From positions 434,001 through 498,000 of the forward strand of contig NW_026516223.1 in the NCBI RefSeq assembly GCF_025602895.1: DNA of 64,000 nt, given 5' to 3'. The stretch comes from Polychytrium aggregatum. Taxonomy: Eukaryota; Chytridiomycota; Chytridiomycetes; Polychytriales. Each line of letters opens with the position of its first letter. Position 1 is the first letter of the stretch. Made by a program: the position numbers and the translations under genes. The notes under the pieces were generated by a model. The model made no database searches. It had not been told where the DNA came from and saw only the letters and a program-made list of their open reading frames with translations. Shown here in pieces: positions 8,716 to 63,824 of the stretch.

Positions 8716-9088
8716 TTCACTCGGCCCTGCGAGGGTGATTGCCCGCACCTGTTACTTGTCCCTGATGTTGTCACTGGCTATACTGCTCTTTCTCTCTTTC
8801 TCTTTCCCTCTGTCTATTGCTCTGTCATATCTAGAACCCGTCTTTGGTTTGTTGCTTGTTGCCACTTGTCGTCGTCGTGCCCGTCTCATTTGGTCCTGTT
8901 TTCGAAGCGTTCACTTGTTGTGCCTCGGTTGTTTCATTCCTCAAGTACAGCCTGGTCGCCGTCCTTTCGTATATTTGCTCAGTCCGTCGTGCTATGAGGC
9001 CGGTGTTGCTGCGTCGGGCTGCATGTCCGTTCTGTTCCAACGTTGCATCGTTCTGCATAACGACACGAACAAAGCGGTGCGTATCCAT
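8716..9088. other. 3' flank of transporter copy 1
   Basis: Presumed 3' untranslated and spacer sequence up to the transposon. No gene seen. Confidence 0.4.
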
Positions 9089-9090
9089 TA

Positions 9091-9116
9091 CGGGCGATCC
9101 AATAAAAAACGGGACA
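9091..9116 (+). repeat. Left terminal inverted repeat of Fanzor transposon A
   Basis: 26 bp ending inward in AAAAAACGGGACA, followed by CCC. The outer nine bases are diverged from the right end. The same register is found in the left end of the miniature element (CAGCGTTTCC outer, GGGACA inner). Confidence 0.8.
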
Positions 9117-9173
9117 CCCAGGTTTTGACCATTGATCGAATATTTTGTTACCCAATGTTATCGCGCGCTGGCC

Positions 9174-9980
9174 ATGACCATTCGCCACACATCCGACTTT
9201 CGCACCGCCGCATTGCGATGCTACGCCCTCATCCATAGCCTGCGTAAGGTCGCCTCCATATTCAGTGTATCCAAGAGCACCATCCATCGATGGCACCGAG
9301 GATGCAAGCTGGATGACCCATCCCGAGTCCCAGCTCGCAGATCCACTTTCTTCGAGCAGGCATGTCCAGTCATTCGCACCCTGATTGAACAGGACCCGTT
9401 CCAGACTGGTCCTGTGCTGCGATGCAAGCTCGAGTCCATCCTCCAGAGGAAAGTTTCACTCTCACTCTGCCACACTGCCATCCACCGAGCAGGTCTCTCA
9501 CACAAGAGGGCAACACACCTCTACAAGTCCAAGCGACTGGATGAGCGAGTGGCACAGTTCAGGGACCAGGTCCGCTCCATTGACCCGCGGCGATTCGTTT
9601 TTGTCGACGAGACAGGGATCAGGAGATCCATTTTCCCTCTCTACGGATACTCACCGAGGGGTGCTCCGCTTCGCCAGCGCAATCACATGAAGCACAAGTC
9701 TGTCTCGGCTGCATTTGCCATCAACCACTCTGGTGTGCTGCATCGCATGTACATCCCCACATCATTCAAGACACACTCGATGGTCGAGTTCTTTGAGCGA
9801 GCGAGCTTCCCAGACGACTCTGTGATTGTGATGGACAATGTCAGCATGCATAAGACAAGGGCTGTCCTGGACTGCATCGAGCGCCGAGGATGGTCAGTGA
9901 TCTTCACCCCACCTGCCTCGCCCGACTTCAATCCCATCGAGAACTTCTTTGGGGTTGAGTCCCCACCGATTTGGGGTTGA
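9174..9980 (+). pseudogene. Tc1/mariner DD34E transposase, truncated after the catalytic glutamate
   Basis: Transposase that would cut and rejoin the element ends. ATG at 9174 is chosen over upstream non-ATG codons. The N-terminus has a helix-turn-helix (RKVASIFSVSKSTIHRW). The DDE catalytic residues are visible: Asp in FVFVDETGIRR, Asp in VIVMDNVSMHK and Glu in SPDFNPIENFF, with 34 residues between the second Asp and the Glu, as in Tc1-type enzymes. The 268-residue frame then runs into a 22-bp tandem repeat and stops (GVESPPIWG), so roughly 30-50 family-typical C-terminal residues are absent, and no continuation is found downstream. Probably inactive. Confidence 0.85.
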
Positions 9981-10013
9981 GTCCCCATCATTTTGGGGTT
10001 TAGTCCCCCAATC
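9948..10013. repeat. Three 22-bp tandem repeats at the transposase break
   Basis: Units at 9948-9969, 9970-9991 and 9992-10013, each beginning TTTGGGGTTGAGTCCCC (third unit with one change and a one-base shift in the C run). Each unit holds a small imperfect inverted repeat, GGGG...CCCC. They replace the transposase 3' end and lie about 240 bp upstream of the Fanzor ATG. Confidence 0.9.
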
Positions 10014-10116
10014 AAGCCGCCATTTTCGCGTTCACATCCCTGGCTTGAACCTCTCGGCGATTTTTGAACAGGTCGCTTCCCCAACCAGCCCGCGCAGACG
10101 GGCTCCTGCTCTCGGG

Positions 10117-10123
10117 TATAAAT
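10117..10123 (+). promoter_or_regulatory. TATA box for the Fanzor gene
   Basis: TATAAAT within CTCGGGTATAAATGTCCC, followed by a pyrimidine-rich stretch and then the Fanzor ATG about 130 bp downstream. The spacing suits a core promoter; inferred only. Confidence 0.45.
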
Positions 10124-10250
10124 GTCCCACCTTCGTCCTGCTGCTTTCTTCCCTCATCTCGCCTTGATCTGATCATTCGCGCCATTGTACGATAAAAAAG
10201 TCTCTGCTCTGACCAGTACCACTGGCAGGCACCCAGCATTCTCTGCCCCC

Positions 10251-12623
10251 ATGCCTCCGAAGCGCAAGGGTGCCGGTGATGGCCAGCCTCGGCCACCCAG
10301 GCCCAAGAAAGCCAAGTCACAGTCGGAGCCTGTCTCTGGTTCGTATTCTGATCTCACGCATGCTTGTTCATCTGTTGCTCCGTCGCTCACCACCACTGCT
10401 TCTGCAGATCCAATGGATGTCGATCCCACCGAGCCTGGTCCATCTACTTCCTCGAGTACCGGCAAGCGATGTCGCCAGTGCGATGGCACCGATCACGAAC
10501 GCTGCAACACTAGCAAGTGTCCCAAATACCGGCCCCTCAAGAGTTCTGTCGTCCCACTCGTGGATGGAAGGTCATCCGCCCCTCAGTTCAGCTGCTTCAA
10601 GCAGACGATAGATGGCTGTTGTCTCAATCCCGCTCTCCGCGACAAGATCCAGGCCACCGTCGAGGCCATGACCCAGATCCAGTTCGAGGCATCCAGGCTG
10701 CTCAACCTGCACATCCTCCGGTGCATCGAGCAGGATCTTCCCGTCCCCGTCATCTCCAAGTCCACCCCTGCTTTCATCCGCCAGTGCTTTAAGATCGTCC
10801 AGGCCGGTGCCCTCTCCCCGACCGGGGACAATGAGAAATACAACGAGCATCTGGTCGCTTCCTTTGGCATCTACCAGACCACTCGGCACGCAGACCTGCC
10901 TCCGGCCCCTCGTCTGCCTGATGGTGCTCACAGTCAGCTTCTCACCCTGGCTGTCAATGCCTATGCTACCAACTGCACCACCCACCTCAACCTGGCCTAC
11001 TGGCGACTCCTTCGCCGCTTCTGTGCTGCTGTCTTCCCAGCCAACAAGCACAAGCACGAAGCCATCGAGGCCTGTCTCGAGCTCTTCGAGAAACCAGGGC
11101 AAACACCACCCAAGGCCGATCTCGAGTTCCTCTATCCAGACTTTGGCCACATCCTGGACGAGTTTCGGTACAGCAACGACCAGGACCGCTTCCGGGCCCT
11201 CCATCGCCTCTCACACCATGTGAGAATCCTCGCCCGAGACAAGATGGTCGACAATGTCCACAAGTGGATCGACTGTGACATGCCCGCCCTCCGAGTCACC
11301 GAGCTGCAGCGCCAGGCCAAGCTGGACGAGCTCACTACCCAAGGCATTCCCTCCGACGACAAGAGGTTCACCACGGCCAAGTCTGAGCTCGGCACCACCA
11401 AGGCCAAGATCAACAAGCTGGCATCCAGGCTCAAGTGGGCTCTCAAGTAGCTCGCCGTCGACACTCCTCCGGCCGTGTGCACGATAGTTCCTCTATGCAC
11501 AGCCAAGGCCAAGTATGTCAAGATTGACACGGTCACTCTTTGGCAACTCCTGGGTCCAAAGAAGCGCCTTGGACTCACCTGGGACAAGCTCAAGGAAGAA
11601 GGTGAGGACGGTGTCAACAACCAGGATCGTCTCTGGCGCAGTTGCTTCAAGCTGCGTAGTTCCCTCTTCCAAGAGCGAGACGTGAACAAGAAGCTGTTCA
11701 ACTACGAGATCAGCACCGATGGCATTGGATGCACCATCGGTCTCGTCAAGTTTGTGCGTCGAACCGATCGCTCCGAGACCATCGAGCCTCCTCCGACTGC
11801 CGAGCAGCGTATCCAGGCCCACATCGGCGACCCAGACCCCGATCGCACCACTTGGATTGGCATCGATCCTGGAGTCGGCTCCATCTTCACGGCGGTCATC
11901 CAAGCACCGGGTCACCAAGACGAGGTGGTCTCGTTCTCCAATGGTCACTATCAGCACATGTGTGGCCACAAGTCCAATACTGAGTGGCACAACACCATGA
12001 AGTATCGACTCGATATCGAGACCTGGATGTCGACCACTCCCTCGCCCAAGGTGTCGTCCTCGGAGGCTTTCAAGGTCCATCTCACCCATGTCCTGCGACC
12101 GGAGCTGCGAGTGCAGCTCGACTTCCACCTTGGCAAGAAGGCCCGTCACCATCGCTTCACGGGCCACAGGAGACGCCAAGTGGCCGTCGACAAGATGTGC
12201 AAGGCCGTCCTGAAGCACGCCCCGATACGGACCGATGTGGTGATCGCCTTTGGCAATGCATCATGGCGTCAAGGCAAGGGCTATGCATCCAGCCCTCAGA
12301 GGCAGCGGTTTGCTCGGTACTTTGAGCAATTCGAGCACCACCGCCGCCGTCCCAATCACCCTCATGGAAGCGTCAAGGTGGCCTCGACGAACGAGTTCAA
12401 CACCTCGCAAGTGTGCTCCAAGTGCCTGGAGCCAGTTCGGTTGGAAGGACTCGATGCGCCCAGTGTTGCGAATTCCCACTTTGTCAGGAGCTGCAAGAAT
12501 CCCAGCTGCCGGACAGTGTGGAATCGCGACGTCAATGCGGCGCGCAACATGATCACAGTGTGCAAGTCGATTGTGGAGACCGGAGAGCGACCGGCGGTCT
12601 TCACTCGGAGGCTGCCAAAGTGA
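10251..12623 (+). CDS. Fanzor-type TnpB-like RNA-guided endonuclease with one in-frame TAG
   Basis: Eukaryotic relative of TnpB, expected to cut DNA under guidance of an RNA made from the element's right end. Single-exon frame of 789 residues interrupted by TAG at 11448-11450 (399 residues before, 390 after); both halves are in one frame and no frame-preserving intron removes the stop. N-terminus: basic NLS-like PPKRKG and RPKKAKS, then a zinc-knuckle-like C-x2-C-x4-H-x2-C-x4-C near residues 77-95. Core: RuvC-I Asp539 in WIGIDPGVGS; RuvC-II strand VVIAFGNAS with no Glu; alternative Glu715 in STNEFNTSQVC; zinc ribbon CSKC...CKNPSC; RuvC-III Asp760 in WNRDVNAARNM. ATG at 10251 was chosen because it starts the NLS and has a TATA box upstream. 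Annotated whole; whether it is expressed by readthrough or is a fresh pseudogene is open. Confidence 0.85.
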
Positions 12624-12721
12624 TCTGATCTATTTCTTGTGGCTTTGCTAGATGCAAGCACAGCACATACTACATGTTCATGGAAACGGCTATATTGTCC
12701 CGTTTTTTTCTGAATAAAGTG
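12624..12721 (+). ncRNA. Candidate guide-RNA (omega-RNA-like) scaffold at the element's right end
   Basis: In TnpB and Fanzor systems the guide RNA scaffold overlaps the 3' end of the nuclease gene and the right end of the element, and the guide is copied from flanking DNA. The 98 bases between the Fanzor stop and the right end are the only sequence in the position expected. No fold was computed and little of it is shared with the miniature element beyond the terminal repeat. Confidence 0.25.
12696..12721 (-). repeat. Right terminal inverted repeat of Fanzor transposon A
   Basis: Reads TGTCCCGTTTTTTTCTG then nine more bases on the plus strand, directly followed by TA. Inverted copy of the 9091-9116 end, and same register as the right end of the miniature element. 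Confidence 0.8.
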
Positions 12722-12897
12722 TAGTTGAATGTGCATGTCCCATCGCGCCCCATCGAAAGTCCTGTGCATCGCCACCAGGCCTGTGACAGCCAGCCCCGCT
12801 CCACCGGCCGCCCTCCGGCGTTTGTCGGACCCGGCCAGCTCTAGCCTGATCTCGCCCATCCTCCAGCTCGCCTCCCCCTCCTCCTCGACCTCCAGCC

Positions 12898-41571: not shown

Positions 41572-41667
41572 ATGAATGCGATGAGTGGGTGGGTGTATTC
41601 AGGCCACAGAAAAAACCGCTGTCATGGCTCAAAACGGGGGGTGTCCCATTTCATTTTGGAAACGCTG
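41572..41667 (-). mobile_element. Solo left-end relic of the Fanzor transposon family
   Basis: About 96 bp match the first 98 bp of the miniature Fanzor element at 63181-63278 in inverse orientation. The terminal 26 bp (41642-41667) differ from that element at one position. The dinucleotide outside is TT rather than TA, so the boundary is slightly damaged. Confidence 0.75.
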
Positions 41668-63180: not shown

Positions 63181-63206
63181 CAGCGTTTCCAGAATGAAAT
63201 GGGACA
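63181..63206 (+). repeat. Left terminal inverted repeat of miniature element
   Basis: Starts CAGCGTTTCCAGAATGAAAT then GGGACA; preceded by TA. Confidence 0.85.
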
Positions 63207-63289
63207 CCCCCCCCCGTTTTTAACCAGGATAGTGATTTTTCTGGAACCTGAATACACCCACCATATCATCGCATTCATAGCTATTCAGT

Positions 63290-63784
63290 ATGTCCAAGGA
63301 GACCGAAGTGGTGATTGCCTTTGGGAATGCTTCCTGGAAACAGGGGAAGGGATATGCATCCAGTCCCAGGAGACTCAGGTTTGCCAAGTACTTTGAGCAG
63401 TTCCACCACCACCAGAGACGACCACCAGACCGATCCGTCTCCAAGATCCATGTGTGCTCGGTGAACGAGTTCAACACGTCCCAGGTGTGCTCACATTGCC
63501 GGGAATTCAAGCGACTTGAGTCACCCGAGTATCTTGATGTCGAGAAACCACACTTTGTCCGGAGCTGTACAAGCTGCCATACGCTGTGGGATCGAGACAT
63601 CAATGCAGCCAGGAACATGATCTCGGTATGCCAGTCGATCATCGCCACAGGAGATCGACCGGGTGTATTCAAGACCATGCTTCCCAAACCAACCAAAACC
63701 ACTCGATTGCCAACCAGGACGGGAAACAATCGCACGGCTTGTTCACTGGGGCCTACAGTCAGCCAGCAGGGTTCAGATATCTGA
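63290..63784 (+). pseudogene. C-terminal Fanzor fragment (RuvC-II to RuvC-III)
   Basis: 164-residue frame from ATG 63290. It aligns with the last third of the Fanzor at 10.3-12.6 kb: VVIAFGNASWKQGKGYASSP, VNEFNTSQVCSHC (alternative catalytic Glu and zinc-ribbon Cys), CTSCHTLWDRDINAARNM (RuvC-III Asp). The RuvC-I Asp and the whole N-terminal domain are missing, so it cannot cut alone. The stop has shifted: where the full-length protein ends (LPK), this frame runs on for about 31 residues. It may persist because it overlaps guide-RNA sequence at the right end. Confidence 0.88.
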
Positions 63785-63798
63785 AGCCAGAAAGGAAC

Positions 63799-63824
63799 TG
63801 TCCCGTTTCTTTCTGGACCGGCTG
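63799..63824 (-). repeat. Right terminal inverted repeat of miniature element
   Basis: TGTCCCGTTTCTTTCTGG then CCGGCTG, directly followed by TA. A perfect 14-bp palindrome (TTCAGATATCTGAA, 63772-63785) lies just inside. Confidence 0.85.

Follow-up and report, generated by a model that had tools for sequence, protein, structure and literature searches.

What a eukaryotic cut-and-paste transposon gains from an RNA-guided nuclease of the Fanzor type is the question raised by the element located at positions 9091-12721 of a 64,000-nt stretch of the genome of the chytrid Polychytrium aggregatum (hereafter the window; C124:434001-498000). Searches of the assembly (64.7 Mb in 418 contigs) established that it belongs to a high-copy family of the Tc1/mariner type, with a DD34E transposase and a Fanzor1 nuclease within one pair of ends, which is inserted at TA and, in one orientation, 3' of TTA. 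The assembly contains many regions twice, so that all the counts given below overstate the number of independent insertions. Tc/mariner elements with Fanzor1, some of them carrying both genes, were described in 2013 by Bao and Jurka (PMC3627910). The role of Fanzor for eukaryotic transposons is the broader issue, and this family allows the idea that the nuclease retains the element at its locus to be turned into specific and cheap tests.

From 5' to 3', the window element consists of the left repeat, the transposase gene, a 22-bp tandem array, a Fanzor gene in two pieces and a 98-nt noncoding tail that ends in the right repeat, and it is bracketed by TA at 9089-9090 and 12722-12723, as the initial annotation had indicated. 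That annotation had also described the 26-bp inverted ends as matching; the ends are indeed inverted and of that length, in agreement with the terminal inverted repeats of the Tc1/mariner (IS630) group, but the adjective was generous, given that the left repeat (CGGGCGATCCAATAAAAAACGGGACA) and the reverse complement of the right one (CACTTTATTCAGAAAAAAACGGGACA) are identical at 18 of 26 positions in this copy, with the inner 13 positions as the only long perfect run that they share. The left end most frequent among family members (CAGGCAATCC...) reaches 19 of 26 against the right end. The presence of a DD34E transposase and a Fanzor in the same orientation inside these ends was confirmed by matches to DDE_3 and Cas12f1-like_TNB, respectively. 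The element is complete, as had been proposed, in the structural sense that both ends are present, but not in its coding capacity: the transposase is truncated and the Fanzor frame contains an in-frame TAG.

The acidic motifs of the window transposase are located at 9603, 9828 and 9930, and the 34 residues between the second D and the E, counted by hand on the protein of a sister copy (P0019), identify it as a DDE/D transposase of the Tc1/mariner (IS630) group with DD34E spacing. Compared with the 310-aa versions in sister copies, it is missing ~50 residues at the C terminus, its frame ending inside the tandem array. Three array units are present in the window, one in each of the other 268-aa copies (n=3) and none in any of the seven 310-aa copies. 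The array unit (TTTGGGGTTGAGTCCCC), at the 3' end of the transposase gene, has internal inverted symmetry.

The Fanzor of the window copy carries DPG at 11865, EFNTSQVCSKC (E followed by CxxC) at 12393 and WNRD at 12519. It thus conforms to the Fanzor fingerprint, i.e. the RuvC DPG and a glutamate six residues before a CxxC zinc finger, followed by D (PMC10711439), a fingerprint that also covers Fanzor2. The DPG and E715 are invariant across an alignment of 10 Fanzor sequences, and the 790-aa protein of an intact sister copy (L031; P0018) has the DPG at RuvC1 and the glutamate six residues ahead of the zinc finger. When a 10-sequence profile led by the intact sister copy was compared with the PDB, the best scores corresponded to SpuFz1 (4.2e-35), PpFz1 (4.8e-25) and GtFz1 (6.9e-25), with the mimivirus L79 protein (a Fanzor2) ranking below the Fanzor1 proteins (8e-12). 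A Foldseek search with the predicted model of the L031 protein, which is of moderate confidence (pLDDT 68.8, pTM 0.58), returned Fanzor1 at all of ranks 1-7. In sequence and in predicted fold the protein thus appears nearer to the solved Fanzor1 structures than to Fanzor2, TnpB or Cas12. No Pfam or PDB match was found for the N-terminal half alone; its Cys/His cluster is common to two metagenomic relatives in the alignment, and P0005, one of the sequences aligned with it, matches zf-CCHC_6 weakly, under the cut-off of that model. A protein search with the full-length Fanzor gave no match at E <= 0.001 among 7,994 scored candidates, which is attributed to word selection and not to absence, and the C-terminal half alone gave 17 matches.

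Further copies were sought at the DNA level with the C-terminal half of the Fanzor gene plus the right end. The best 40 of 1,103 candidates were scored and yielded 41 matches, 40 of them at 96-100% identity (window included) and one at 68%. Eighteen further copies, each taken with 8.8 kb of sequence and chosen regardless of the left flank, formed a set of 19 full copies together with the window; the 20 or so other matches enter the comparisons, where they do so, through their right part. All 18 start at the equivalent of window positions 9087-9097 and end at 12723-12727, and some are internally deleted. A test set beforehand, whether the transposase and Fanzor lie in elements with different ends elsewhere in the genome, therefore turned out in favor of a single element with one pair of ends. 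The truncated transposase and the Fanzor stop of the window copy could, taken by themselves, suggest decay, with two unrelated elements nested and Fanzor a functionless passenger. This is very improbable: both genes lie between the same ends in 18/18 further copies, a Fanzor frame of 788-790 aa is preserved in 12 of the 19 full copies and the 310-aa transposase in seven (window included in the count), and both genes are under purifying selection, as detailed below. Nesting was rejected on the basis of the co-terminal copies. Four of the 19 have both the full Fanzor and the 310-aa transposase.

The ends are repeated throughout the genome. With up to 2 mismatches allowed, a 28-mer from the right end matches at 260 places; with up to 3 allowed, a 29-mer from the left end matches at 382. 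Neither reversed control pattern occurs at all, and hence the ends defined in the window are not due to chance. When the 100 right ends listed were paired with 78 of the 100 left ends listed, 51 pairs resulted, of which 41 span 3.2-3.8 kb, seven 284-386 bp and three 1,115 bp; 49 right and 27 left ends remained without a partner. Four of the short derivatives, read from end to end, retain 168-448 nt of the right side. A search for family 1 with a distant query, in which the best 71 of 772 candidates were scored, found 56 with open frames of length 790 or above. The left junction of one copy (L032, near 3166, reverse strand) reads TTTA-TAGTCAATCC..., its first bases matching the right flank (TATAGTCAATCGGG) instead of the usual CAGGCAATCC, and is chimeric, as from microhomology repair.

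Pooled pairwise dN/dS was 0.31 for both Fanzor and the transposase. The observed mutations were also redistributed in 500 reshuffles, in each case within classes of sites alike in base and CpG status. Relative to this expectation, the nonsynonymous/synonymous ratio was 0.36-0.49 for Fanzor and 0.37-0.42 for the transposase, with none of the 500 reshuffles reaching the observed synonymous count, while the two wrong frames of Fanzor gave values of 1.40-1.81. Both genes are under purifying selection, Fanzor about as strongly as the transposase, and selection has therefore kept Fanzor in the lineages that spread.

The insertion site was then defined from the flanks. One copy (L047), inserted in a repeat, lies between TTTTTA and TAACAAG, and a related unoccupied version of that repeat in L037/L029 reads TTTTTTTAACAA, so that TA is duplicated upon insertion; the match with L047 runs for 150 nt on the left and only 22 nt on the right, making this a single, moderate case. 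The prediction that an empty site would break at the TA was thus borne out at this one related unoccupied site. The possibility that the T preceding the TA belongs to the element was rejected: that T is carried by the unoccupied site and is consequently target sequence. TA is found at both junctions in 18 of the 19 full copies, with CA on the right side of the other (L043), in line with the TA target-site duplication (TSD) of the Tc1/mariner (IS630) group. A T precedes the left TA in 18/19 as well, against a background of 181 of the 1,226 TA in the window (p 2e-14). When a left-end pattern free of flank was compared, over their shared range, with a pattern including TTA at 0 mismatches, TTA was present at 95 of the 99 listed left ends; the other four read TTCA, AATA, AGTA and TTG, two of these representing a changed TA and not another preceding base. 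Of 44 left flanks that were read directly, 20 had been taken from the TTA list and 5 because they were missing from it; 41 of the 44 had T before TA, the next base outward being A in 21, T in 15, G in 7 and C in 1. On the other side, TA was present in 35 of 37 distinct right flanks and the base after it showed no bias (G 11, C 11, T 9, A 6). Left flanks being T-biased and right flanks flat after the TA, the TTA motif is one-sided.

TnpB and Fanzor require a motif 5' of their target (target-adjacent motif, TAM), which for Fanzor1 is CATA in SpuFz1 and TTAAN in GtFz1 (PMC10432273). By analogy, TTA is predicted to be the TAM of the family 1 Fanzor. The RNAs of Fanzor1 extend ~15 nt beyond the TSD, with a scaffold that contains the terminal inverted repeat and the TSD (PMC10711439). 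We favor, with moderate confidence, RNA-guided retention by Fanzor as the best explanation for the whole. Cut-and-paste movement of the element would be the work of the transposase. The 3' part of the Fanzor transcript, continued across the right end to include the right TA, would constitute the scaffold of a guide RNA, with the adjoining sequence outside the element as guide. Fanzor loaded with this RNA would recognize an unoccupied site by TTA followed by the guide match and cut it, and repair of the cut from the occupied homologue or sister would restore the element.

The left-only TTA, the conserved and foldable right end and the purifying selection on Fanzor are compatible with retention. 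The last 150 nt of L031 have a predicted folding energy of -48.8 kcal/mol (z -2.81), with none of 200 shuffles as stable, and the left 110 nt gave a z of 0.13. The right TA is paired with an upstream UA in the fold predicted for L031 and closes the last stem. Mean column identity of the scaffold region across 30 copies is 98%, and in a comparison of 39 distinct sequences, some of them from paired contigs, the last 300 nt were among the least variable parts of the half compared and the 98-nt noncoding tail had a diversity of 0.024 vs 0.064 at third codon positions; since the copies had been found by matching this same half, diversity is lowered throughout it.

Several results weigh against retention. 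The last 110 nt of the window copy do not fold better than shuffled sequence (z -0.29), and those of L031 reach a z of only -1.00. No covariation was observed in the scaffold, where 0/53 pairs change on both sides and 44 are invariant, the comparison being uninformative for that reason, and the right end had no Rfam match up to E 1. A search with joined flanks, in which the best 40 of 57 candidates were scored, revealed no empty site for any of 14 loci, the window copy among them. To these are added the TTA motif at elements that lack Fanzor and the differences between elements occupying one site.

The first of these concerns the origin of the motif. Two symmetric elements, at C223:320675-320943 (269 bp) and C223:766221-766486 (266 bp), have inverted left ends of a second family (described below) at both sides, and in 2/2 TTA is present on exactly one side, with GTA opposite. 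Given their short length and the left-type ends on both sides, they hold neither Fanzor nor its right end, and the transposase may therefore be what sets the motif. TTA would then reflect the target preference of the transposase alone, acting through an asymmetric strand-transfer complex, and Fanzor would be active, with a motif and a benefit that may differ from those proposed here. The 99 family 1 left ends compared above, which include those of short derivatives, point in the same direction. Tc1/mariner integration, however, is not known for a one-sided preference in the flanks, and at the window background two symmetric elements would both have one or more TTA sides with a probability of ~0.075. 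Six further left ends of the family 2 type gave TTA in two, ATA in two and a changed TA in two (TTCA, ATAA). In IS200/IS605 elements the target motif coincides with that of TnpB, so that a transposase and a Fanzor reading of TTA overlap; two symmetric cases do not separate them, and the motif may be common to both proteins. We regard the transposase as the only source of TTA as a real but somewhat doubtful possibility.

The second family also bears on what Fanzor acts upon. Its Fanzor is 52-56% identical to that of family 1 over the shared C-terminal part. The best 138 of 980 candidates in a search for it comprised 60 matches covering most of the query, 44 of them with frames of length 800 or above, and 78 partial ones. 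Its 856-aa frame in one copy (L074, 1746-4316, reverse strand) has two N-terminal Cys/His clusters, compared with one in family 1. The initial annotation had placed deleted derivatives of the window element within the same 64 kb; the derivative found there, at 63181-63824, is instead a member of this second, related family (91% identity to the L074 copy over 535 nt), as is a solo end at 41642. The fold of the last 110 nt of this derivative gave a z of -1.11. Sequence common to several copies is found downstream of the family 2 right end (L037 6773-7691, L047 2900-3138 and L074), and judging from this sequence family 2 may sit within a larger repeat unit. An annotated 640-aa protein (P0008) appears in its gene model as an F-box protein fused to a C-terminal Fanzor fragment, and may be an exonised family 2 derivative or a gene-model error.

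This genome contains two or more Fanzor families together with numerous derivatives, a situation that would suit a Fanzor that acts in trans, on other copies or rival elements or as a self-limiting regulator, and not in restoring its own locus. The family 1 copy in L037 is inserted inside a family 2 derivative and would yield a guide against the other family, and help in trans is raised in the discussion of PMC10432273. The presence of a left-only motif beside the family's own insertion sites is nevertheless most simply read as self-targeting, and we consider such a role in place of retention unlikely. Retention itself leaves room for help between copies, in that guide RNAs could be provided in trans by short derivatives in which the right end is preserved.

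The remaining point against retention came from regions represented by two contigs. At least one flank was present in a second contig for 13 of 14 insertion sites queried, and six pairs of sites were compared (L005/L045, L007/L035, L014/L034, L021/L033, L013/L043 and window/L002). Right flanks showed 0-4 differences per ~1,400 bases (99.7-100% identical). The last 2,700 bases of the element showed 63-103 differences (2.3-3.8%) in five of the six pairs and 11 (0.4%) in window/L002. Among 697 random pairs of copies the mean was 107 differences (range 75-138), two of the paired sites (63 and 68) being closer than any of them. Variants exclusive to both partners numbered eight in window/L002 and 3, 1, 0, 0 and 0 in the other pairs, those differing between partners mostly recur in other copies, and at one site the two copies are unequal in length (about 3,365 vs 3,629 bp). 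Linkage among the 19 copies decays over 100-200 bases to about the level given by shuffling, and linkage disequilibrium in family 2 (400 nt in 13 copies) is likewise near that level, so this mosaicism is not peculiar to family 1. CpG decay was rejected as the source of shared variants, 24 of 193 common variants being of the CpG type.

That partner elements at one site differ is the opposite of faithful re-copying, unless the assembly mixed repeats. The pattern would result either from ectopic gene conversion or from the assembler mixing near-identical repeats and building one locus twice. Mixing is the more likely of the two, because the flanks are near-perfect and frames are shorter in one partner of three family 2 pairs. 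Those pairs, deduced from contig position (C407:91654/C112:897150, C378:15865/C364:13760 and C378:39056/C364:36859), differ in score and frame, and two pairs read at 400 nt were identical (L081/L082) or 99% identical (L084/L087). Allelic family 2 pairs were withdrawn as a control for such mixing because they were not a clean one, having first been recognized by their equal scores. The interiors of individual copies should thus be treated with care; flanks, ends and the target motif are unaffected by mixing. A more speculative reading, to which we give little credence, is that the insertion site keeps its position as the element is swapped for other members of the family, as the footprint of repeated Fanzor-directed breaks at TTA that are repaired or refilled from ectopic copies. 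If true, this would be a eukaryotic element whose address is held by an RNA guide while its content turns over. The features on which the analysis is based are listed in Table 1.

Table 1. Coordinates of the element, its predicted RNA and related features in the window.
Feature	Position	Strand	Remarks
Tc1/mariner-type element with transposase and Fanzor1	9091..12721	+	3,631 bp; co-terminal copies, ends repeated genome-wide
TTA at the left junction (T plus TA target-site copy)	9088..9090	+	predicted Fanzor target-adjacent motif
Left terminal inverted repeat	9091..9116	+	CGGGCGATCCAATAAAAAACGGGACA
DD34E transposase of 268 aa, in this copy truncated at the C terminus	9174..9980	+	Pfam DDE_3 3.3e-21
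22-bp tandem array (TTTGGGGTTGAGTCCCC...) at the point of transposase frame loss	9948..10013	+	
Fanzor, N-terminal half, 399 codons followed by in-frame TAG at 11448-11450	10251..11450	+	
Cys/His cluster resembling a zinc knuckle, Fanzor N terminus	10470..10528	+	aligns with P0005 and P0006 in a sister copy
Fanzor, C-terminal half, RuvC and zinc finger	11451..12623	+	Cas12f1-like_TNB 2.3e-9
Predicted scaffold of the guide RNA (omega/re-RNA), comprising the 3' part of the Fanzor open reading frame, right end and right TA	12574..12723	+	
Right terminal inverted repeat	12696..12721	-	reverse complement = CACTTTATTCAGAAAAAAACGGGACA
Right TA target-site copy	12722..12723	+	predicted to form the final two bases of the scaffold; paired in the fold
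Predicted guide segment, ~20 nt directly after the right TA	12724..12743	+	proposed by analogy
Family 2 left terminal repeat, solo, at a fragment end	41642..41667	-	
Family 2 derivative, 644 bp: left end after TTTA, C-terminal Fanzor fragment, right end before TA	63181..63824	+	

Among known systems, the bacterial elements with TnpB of the IS200/IS605 and IS607 groups are alike in combining a transposase with an RNA-guided nuclease whose guide RNA derives from the right end, and in having a motif in the left flank; in the Polychytrium family the right-end RNA is a prediction. Those elements use an HUH or a serine recombinase, unlike the DDE cut-and-paste enzyme with TA duplication found here. 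Within fungi, SPu-1 of Spizellomyces punctatus resembles the Polychytrium family in carrying a Fanzor1 (SpuFz1) and a TA TSD (PMC3627910, PMC10432273), and SpuFz1 is the closest solved structure to the Polychytrium Fanzor both by profile and by fold. The 5' motif of both ends in TA, CATA in the case of SpuFz1 (PMC10432273) vs the TTA proposed for Polychytrium. SPu-1, however, present in 17 full-length copies, has Fanzor (633 aa) as the sole protein that it encodes, whereas the Polychytrium transposase sits inside the same ends; according to Saito et al. (PMC10432273), the first biochemical study, the inverted repeats of SPu-1 flank no transposase and the other three Fanzors have no clear association with one.

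No paper in the library searched mentions Polychytrium together with Fanzor. The closest parallels in gene content are PGv-1 and PUl-1, with a mariner-like transposase and a Fanzor1 in one element, in a group with terminal inverted repeats and TA TSDs (PMC3627910). PGv-1 is a single-copy viral element with an additional endonuclease gene, in contrast with the fungal family reported here, which has hundreds of ends and many open copies and, unlike PGv-1, permits a test of the flank motif. The two genes within one pair of ends, the 260 right ends, the intact copies, the derivatives that keep the right end and a left motif that predicts the target rule give the family its value for such tests. 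The pairing of mariner and Fanzor was known before, and the family of P. aggregatum is a new, large and experimentally useful member of this group.

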